From NCBI RefSeq assembly GCF_001652725.1, contig NZ_LWHJ01000030.1, positions 62,001 through 126,000 on the forward strand: a stretch of 64,000 bases of DNA, written 5' to 3'. This DNA comes from Pedobacter psychrophilus. Its GTDB lineage: Bacteria; Bacteroidota; Bacteroidia; Sphingobacteriales; Sphingobacteriaceae. The notes beneath the pieces are model-generated. The model made no database searches, was not told where the DNA came from, and saw nothing but the letters and a program-made list of their open reading frames with translations. The translations under genes and the position numbers were made by a program. Shown piece after piece: positions 23,661 through 23,748 of the stretch (its first letter is position 1; the number at the start of each line of letters is the position of its first letter).

Positions 23661-23748
23661 GAGAGTAAAAAGTAGAAAGTAGAAAGTAAAAAGACAATTG
23701 TCTGGATACCAATTACTCAATACTCATTACTAGCTACTCAATACTAAA
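23661..23748. repeat. Inverted pair of heptad arrays between sdhA and sdhB
   Basis: Left array: GAGAGTA, AAAAGTA, GAAAGTA, GAAAGTA, AAAAGAC (23661-23695), each a 7-mer ending in AGTA or a variant. Centre: the perfect 12-bp palindrome AGACAATTGTCT (23692-23703). Right array: TACTCAA, TACTCAT, TACTAGC, TACTCAA, TACTAAA (23714-23748), each beginning with TACT, the reverse complement of AGTA. The two arms are therefore phased 7-base arrays in opposite orientation around a palindrome. It sits wholly within the operon, between the stop of sdhA and the ATG of sdhB. Confidence 0.85.

Follow-up and report, generated by a model that had tools for sequence, protein, structure and literature searches.

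A heptad hairpin in the sdhA-sdhB gap of Pedobacter psychrophilus as a probable ORF-less relative of IVP/S23 intervening sequences

What kind of element fills the gap between two succinate dehydrogenase genes of Pedobacter psychrophilus, and what accounts for its strict 7-base phase, is the question raised by a stretch of 64,000 nucleotides of its genome (the window; contig NZ_LWHJ01000030.1, positions 62,001 to 126,000). The original prediction for this locus described an array carrying AGTA and an inverse array carrying TACT around a palindrome, which was confirmed; the arms are slightly longer than claimed, with extra degenerate units at 23657 (GGTAGAG) and 23705 (GATACC) (Table 1). The sdhA stop codon TAG (23655-23657) abuts the left arm and the sdhB ATG lies at 23754, the whole gap being taken up by the heptad hairpin. 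The core of the left arm is a fourfold AGTANNN (23664-23688), also readable as the 7-mers GAGAGTA AAAAGTA GAAAGTA GAAAGTA AAAAGAC (23662-23696), and that of the right arm is a fivefold TACTNNN (23714-23745) with TACT at 23714, 23721, 23728, 23735 and 23742, while the palindrome AGACAATTGTCT occurs as a single exact copy within the window. Runs in 7-base phase thus reach four for AGTA and five for TACT; 50 copies of the window randomised by a first-order Markov model contained no run of four or more and two runs of three, so that the phase is not a product of chance, in agreement with the original prediction. Both arms were also detected by TRF with period 7.

Table 1. Features of the sdhA-sdhB gap and its borders (positions within the window)
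Feature	Position	Strand	Basis
Upstream gene sdhA (succinate dehydrogenase flavoprotein)	21723..23657	+	translation; name from translated sequence and operon order
Left arm: degenerate heptads GGTAGAG AGTAAAA AGTAGAA AGTAGAA AGTAAAA AGAC	23657..23696	+	sequence, phase runs, TRF
Hairpin centre: palindrome AGACAATTGTCT, AATT loop	23692..23703	n/a (.)	sequence, fold
Right arm: degenerate heptads (GATACCA) TTACTCA ATACTCA TTACTAG CTACTCA ATACTAA; inverse of left arm	23704..23747	+	sequence, TRF, fold
Downstream gene sdhB (iron-sulfur subunit)	23754..24512	+	translation

As RNA, the spacer is predicted to fold at -22.7 kcal/mol (z -3.8; matched by 0 of 200 shuffles) into an extended stem in which helices of 3-5 bp alternate with mostly symmetric internal loops; folded as single-stranded DNA at 37 °C, it is unremarkable (z -0.75). 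It contains no intrinsic terminator comprised of a G+C-rich stem and a T run, the arm being followed by AAAAAGAAATG, has no match among 4227 Rfam families at gathering score and lacks the word TAACTGA. The strong RNA fold, which recurs over 32 spacers (mean z -4.3), would suit a selected mRNA element, that is, a hairpin between the cistrons with a role in the stability, processing or translational buffering of sdhA and sdhB. The location of such structures between co-directional genes (23/27 AGTA clusters in the same genome and 52/61 genes of the IVP/S23 family considered below) and the occupancy of the sdh gap in most relatives point the same way. On the other hand, the sense fold beats the antisense fold in only 13 of the 32 spacers, and G-U mismatches are not commoner than A-C mismatches (34 vs 45 in the sdh spacers, 252 vs 270 in the IVP flanks), so neither the sense/antisense folding nor the mismatch counts give any hint that base pairing is selected on the mRNA strand.

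The same gap in relatives bears on this reading as well. Among 18 genomes of the genus, most contain an inverted heptad hairpin between sdhA and sdhB; the spacer is therefore not unique to one species, and the expectation that similar spacers occur in related genomes holds. The words differ: AGTA is found in P. psychrophilus (G000), G001 and G017, and AGTAGC/AGTATC in G003, whereas G009 carries TGAGATN despite an SdhB that is 98% identical, and words turn over between species with SdhB 97-98% identical. At the DNA level, G001 (82%), G017 (84%) and G002 (72%) are the only genomes whose spacer can be aligned with that of P. psychrophilus along most of its length. In named Bacteroidota the gap often contains a heptad hairpin of other words, such as AAGAATC and AGTGAGT (Mucilaginibacter), AAGTATC and GCGTAAA (Pedobacter) and AATTAGA/GAATTCT (Pontibacter, Adhaeribacter and Hymenobacter); AGTATCA and TGAGATT also occur among the words of the genus and the Bacteroidota. 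In several species the gap is short or empty, as in Mucilaginibacter rivuli, a number of Pedobacter and the reduced genomes; of the latter, four that belong to the genus possess the IVP but lack the sdh hairpin, with little or nothing similar elsewhere. Over 49 sdhA-sdhB spacers, identity at lag 7 is 0.446, against about 0.28 (0.26-0.30) at lags that are not multiples of 7, and the two halves of one spacer match each other better than they match halves from other species, although within the genus alone (n=7 spacers) the left and right halves pair no better than with the halves of sister species and the difference is not significant. The short, hairpin-less gaps of five Pedobacter loci (L151, L157, L159, L182 and L184) retain AGTACT, in which AGTA is fused to TACT; this could be a deletion scar or the seed of a hairpin. 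Emptied gaps and the replacement of words between close species, together with the missing strand bias, make a selected mRNA element improbable, and the processing site or translational buffer offered in the original prediction as the reason for the structure is disfavored on the same grounds.

The contents of the gap in other genomes point to a different kind of element. Three Mucilaginibacter-type genomes, Fulvivirga and Runella have an IVP/S23 gene (PF05635), bordered by arrays, between sdhA and sdhB: in Mucilaginibacter pallidiroseus (L121) the hairpin arms enclose the gene of a four-helix-bundle protein, in two loci (L127 and L128) the IVP gene is preceded or followed by the hairpin on one side and by an additional right arm on the other, and in Fulvivirga (L153) and Runella (L178) a distant relative is flanked by GTTANNN/NNNTAAC words. 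P. psychrophilus itself has three PF05635 genes, two of them within inverted heptad arms. These copies score as PF05635 23S_rRNA_IVP and TIGR02436, show weak similarity to Avd, a protein of diversity-generating retroelements, and match the solved Xanthomonas protein 2gsc, an IVP relative reported to be a homopentamer (PMC4990558). In full elements the IVP is a four-helix-bundle protein of ~117 aa. When 32 IVP loci of the family were pooled with 29 from other Bacteroidota, inverted heptad arms with locus-specific words emerged, mostly of 3-6 heptads and in many cases fitting AGnnnTn, and control genes lacked them. Lag-7 identity in the IVP flanks is 0.416 in Sphingobacteriaceae (0.26-0.30 at non-multiples of 7) and 0.343 in other Bacteroidota, compared with 0.304 for control genes. 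Furthermore, upstream flanks pair better with the downstream flank of their own locus than with a crossed one (18.9 vs 10.7 and 16.8 vs 9.9; 0/10,000 permutations each), and control genes show no such preference (10.9 vs 10.5). Since the same structures occur at many operon junctions, in full form with an IVP/S23 gene, the hairpin is not special to sdh.

A genome-wide scan for 7-base phase gave a divided answer to the original prediction and did not refute it. The AGTA array pattern, with up to 3 mismatches, has 197 matches in the P. psychrophilus genome versus 108 for the reversed control pattern, and exact fourfold matches number 26 versus 0; an unbiased autocorrelation of sampled gaps revealed only a weak excess of lag 7 over other lags, because the arrays are few and their words many. 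By a strict test, only 4 of the 27 AGTA arrays have a clear inverted partner with the same word, many being one-armed, and most are not adjacent to an IVP gene. Two further arrays of this genome deserve mention: a uniform, one-armed array of at least ten AAAAAGT units without an inverted partner (L063, 1562-1642), and a heptad array with its partner directly before an apparent tmRNA gene (L047, about 1530-1680).

The arrays are linked to the IVP at the level of whole genomes. Among 121 genomes of the family, arrays of either of two words are present in 81 of the 89 with PF05635 and in 6 of the 32 without (Fisher 5e-14), an association that is a correlation rather than causation among mutually related genomes; when genomes are stratified by genus, the AGTA word by itself gives p=1e-5. 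This result also bears on a REP/REPIN-type origin, in which the hairpin would be mobilized by a Y1 (IS200/RAYT) transposase. Interspersed extragenic hairpins and eight Y1_Tnp matches in the P. psychrophilus genome are compatible with such an origin, but the IVP still predicts arrays in genomes without Y1_Tnp (29/34 IVP+ vs 4/30 IVP-, p 8e-9), Y1_Tnp adds nothing among IVP+ genomes (p 0.25), and the hairpins have neither a fixed foot tetranucleotide nor a constant stem sequence; mobilization by Y1 is thus very hard to credit. A reverse transcriptase was also considered as the trans factor and rejected: the link holds in genomes without RVT_1 (47/50 IVP+ vs 4/20 IVP-, p 1.5e-9), and P. psychrophilus has no RVT_1 match. 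Exceptions to the association are four genomes that lack the IVP and still have arrays (G062, G089, G090 and G098). In another genome without PF05635 (G045), 100 kb contain two clear heptad hairpins, with AAAAGAC and GAATTAT/GAATGAT (L255-L259), which are perhaps relics, unless a diverged IVP is present. Conversely, G078 and G095 each hold more than 100 array matches and a single IVP gene, so most of their arrays are not beside an IVP. In these two genomes arrays form part of larger interspersed composite repeats (GGAAAGGAAGGATGCAAGGATG...; L270-L279).

The history of such an element can be followed at the fadB-fadA junction. An IVP gene with its hairpin lies there in P. psychrophilus and six relatives (G002, G004, G006, G008, G009 and G016), the gene contains a stop in G007 and G017, and the hairpin stands without a gene in G014 and G003; the two arms of G014 share about 95% identity with those of G017, the gene being gone. 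Hairpins of another word occur in G001, G005 and G015, and the junction of G012 is empty. The coexistence of gene-less hairpins and forms with the IVP indicates that a gene-less hairpin is a real state of the element. The fadA-site IVP is under strong purifying selection (dN/dS 0.04-0.06). In a quick tree of 120 columns, IVP proteins cluster by insertion site (fadA, argD-like and metF-like) and not by species, and the IVPs from the Mucilaginibacter sdh site are nested in the fadA-site group, with which they share the word TGAGATT, as if the sdh-site element had moved between junctions; it may derive from the fadA junction. No transposition event or target duplication was observed among the sites compared.

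A purely mutational origin also has to be weighed, in which slippage expands heptads and template switching at quasi-palindromes corrects the opposite arm, without dedicated machinery, and the IVP merely tolerates the arrays or benefits from them. The absence of strand bias in mismatches and folding energy is what a DNA-level process predicts, one-armed arrays do occur, and a work cited in PMC4679880 names heptads as the most frequent long repeat unit of many genomes. Nevertheless, within one genus arrays are frequent in genomes with the IVP and scarce in those lacking it, IVP genes of at least three phyla are bounded by them, and they keep to operon junctions. A process of this kind is therefore an unlikely source of the spacer, if a less remote one than selection on the mRNA or Y1 transposition.

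Thus, the spacer is probably an ORF-less intervening-sequence hairpin of the IVP/S23 type, spread or maintained in trans by the IVP, whose role in trans is suggested by the association described above. The recombination or mobile-element reading, which came last in the original prediction, is therefore the one that fits best. A full element has ~3-6 degenerate heptads in its left arm, the IVP gene in its loop and an inverse copy of the left arm as its right arm. Full elements occupy sites between co-directional genes or, in the classical case, within 23S rRNA, and by this location are transcribed with the host RNA. The dependence of the arrays on the IVP is a correlation; the IVP would presumably bind heptad hairpins and act on them in trans, copying, moving or rebuilding them, and the elements would presumably move. 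An intercistronic position would make a copy nearly neutral to the sdh operon, and the sdh copy is taken here to be a near-neutral passenger. It is also tempting to propose, more tentatively, that Bacteroidota, Cyanobacteria and other phyla share a mobile-hairpin system whose trans-acting factor is IVP/S23, a widespread orphan family with a relationship to Avd; this factor would build or spread structured elements with degenerate heptad arms and element-specific words, inserted into operon junctions and genes of structured RNAs. If true, a trans-acting IVP would explain 23S intervening sequences, cyanobacterial heptad repeats and Bacteroidetes operon spacers together. No function has been settled for IVP/S23 in the time since the first descriptions of 23S intervening sequences, nor an accepted origin for the heptanucleotide repeats seen in Cyanobacteria and Bacteroidetes; the association of IVP with arrays across genomes joins both questions and makes them testable in a culturable bacterium.

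Outside the Bacteroidota, the IVP genes of cyanobacterial plasmids are bounded by heptads (GGGAGTA, GGGAACA, GCTAAAA and AGGAGAT; lag-7 identity 0.507), and the 23S rRNA gene on a plasmid of Azospirillum lipoferum (L324, 1130-1598) contains an intervening sequence with an IVP ORF in its loop and inverted heptad arms of 36 nt that are 86% complementary, so that arms of this kind border IVP genes in at least three phyla. At three loci of cyanobacterial plasmids the IVP gene, with heptad arrays at its borders, lies between cas genes (L316; cas6-IVP-cas4 in L319; cas10-IVP-cmr3 in L322). A CRISPR association of 23S_rRNA_IVP has been listed (PMC10910872); it may stem from insertion into operon junctions and not from a role in CRISPR. 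The genome-wide link likewise cautions that IVP genes within cas or other operons may be insertions and not working parts. Apart from the Coxiella case, the openly searchable literature yielded no general link between heptad arrays and the IVP, nor a tie between the cyanobacterial short tandemly repeated repetitive (STRR) sequences and the IVP.

Several known systems resemble the spacer in part. Like the 23S rRNA intervening sequences of Coxiella, Leptospira and Azospirillum, it has an inverted-repeat stem, lies in a transcribed region and occurs in a genome that possesses the IVP. Heptad units are a further shared feature, proposed here on the basis of the Azospirillum arms and of Coxiella, in which tandem heptamers GACAGAT precede the S23 ORF of an intervening sequence cut by RNase III (PMC4990558). 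Unlike those sequences, it sits between protein genes of the sdh operon, and each heptad element has its own word. The IVP ORF is optional in the 23S loop, and ORF-less intervening sequences are a recognised state; the loop of the spacer is AATT only, the ORF being met within the arms in M. pallidiroseus and beside arms in the other four loci. Because it fails two features of the 23S type, location and ORF, the spacer is regarded as an intervening-sequence-like variant and not as a 23S intervening sequence proper. The TAACTGA direct repeats of Beggiatoaceae, Cyanobacteria and Bacteroidetes, for which the IVP was not considered (MacGregor 2015, PMC4679880), are likewise intergenic heptamer arrays, often before start codons and patchy in phylogeny, but comprise one fixed word and are mostly direct rather than inverted. 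REP/REPIN sequences with RAYT share extragenic hairpins and, as proposed here, a trans-acting protein, whereas the distribution of the heptad arrays is not explained by a Y1 transposase. In the P6b hairpin of the Nostoc tRNA-Leu intron and the cyanobacterial STRR, degenerate heptads pair into a hairpin and vary in copy number (PMC3488679); the words and the phylum differ from those of the spacer, but both consist of degenerate paired heptads, and the IVP genes of Cyanobacteria are heptad-bounded as well.
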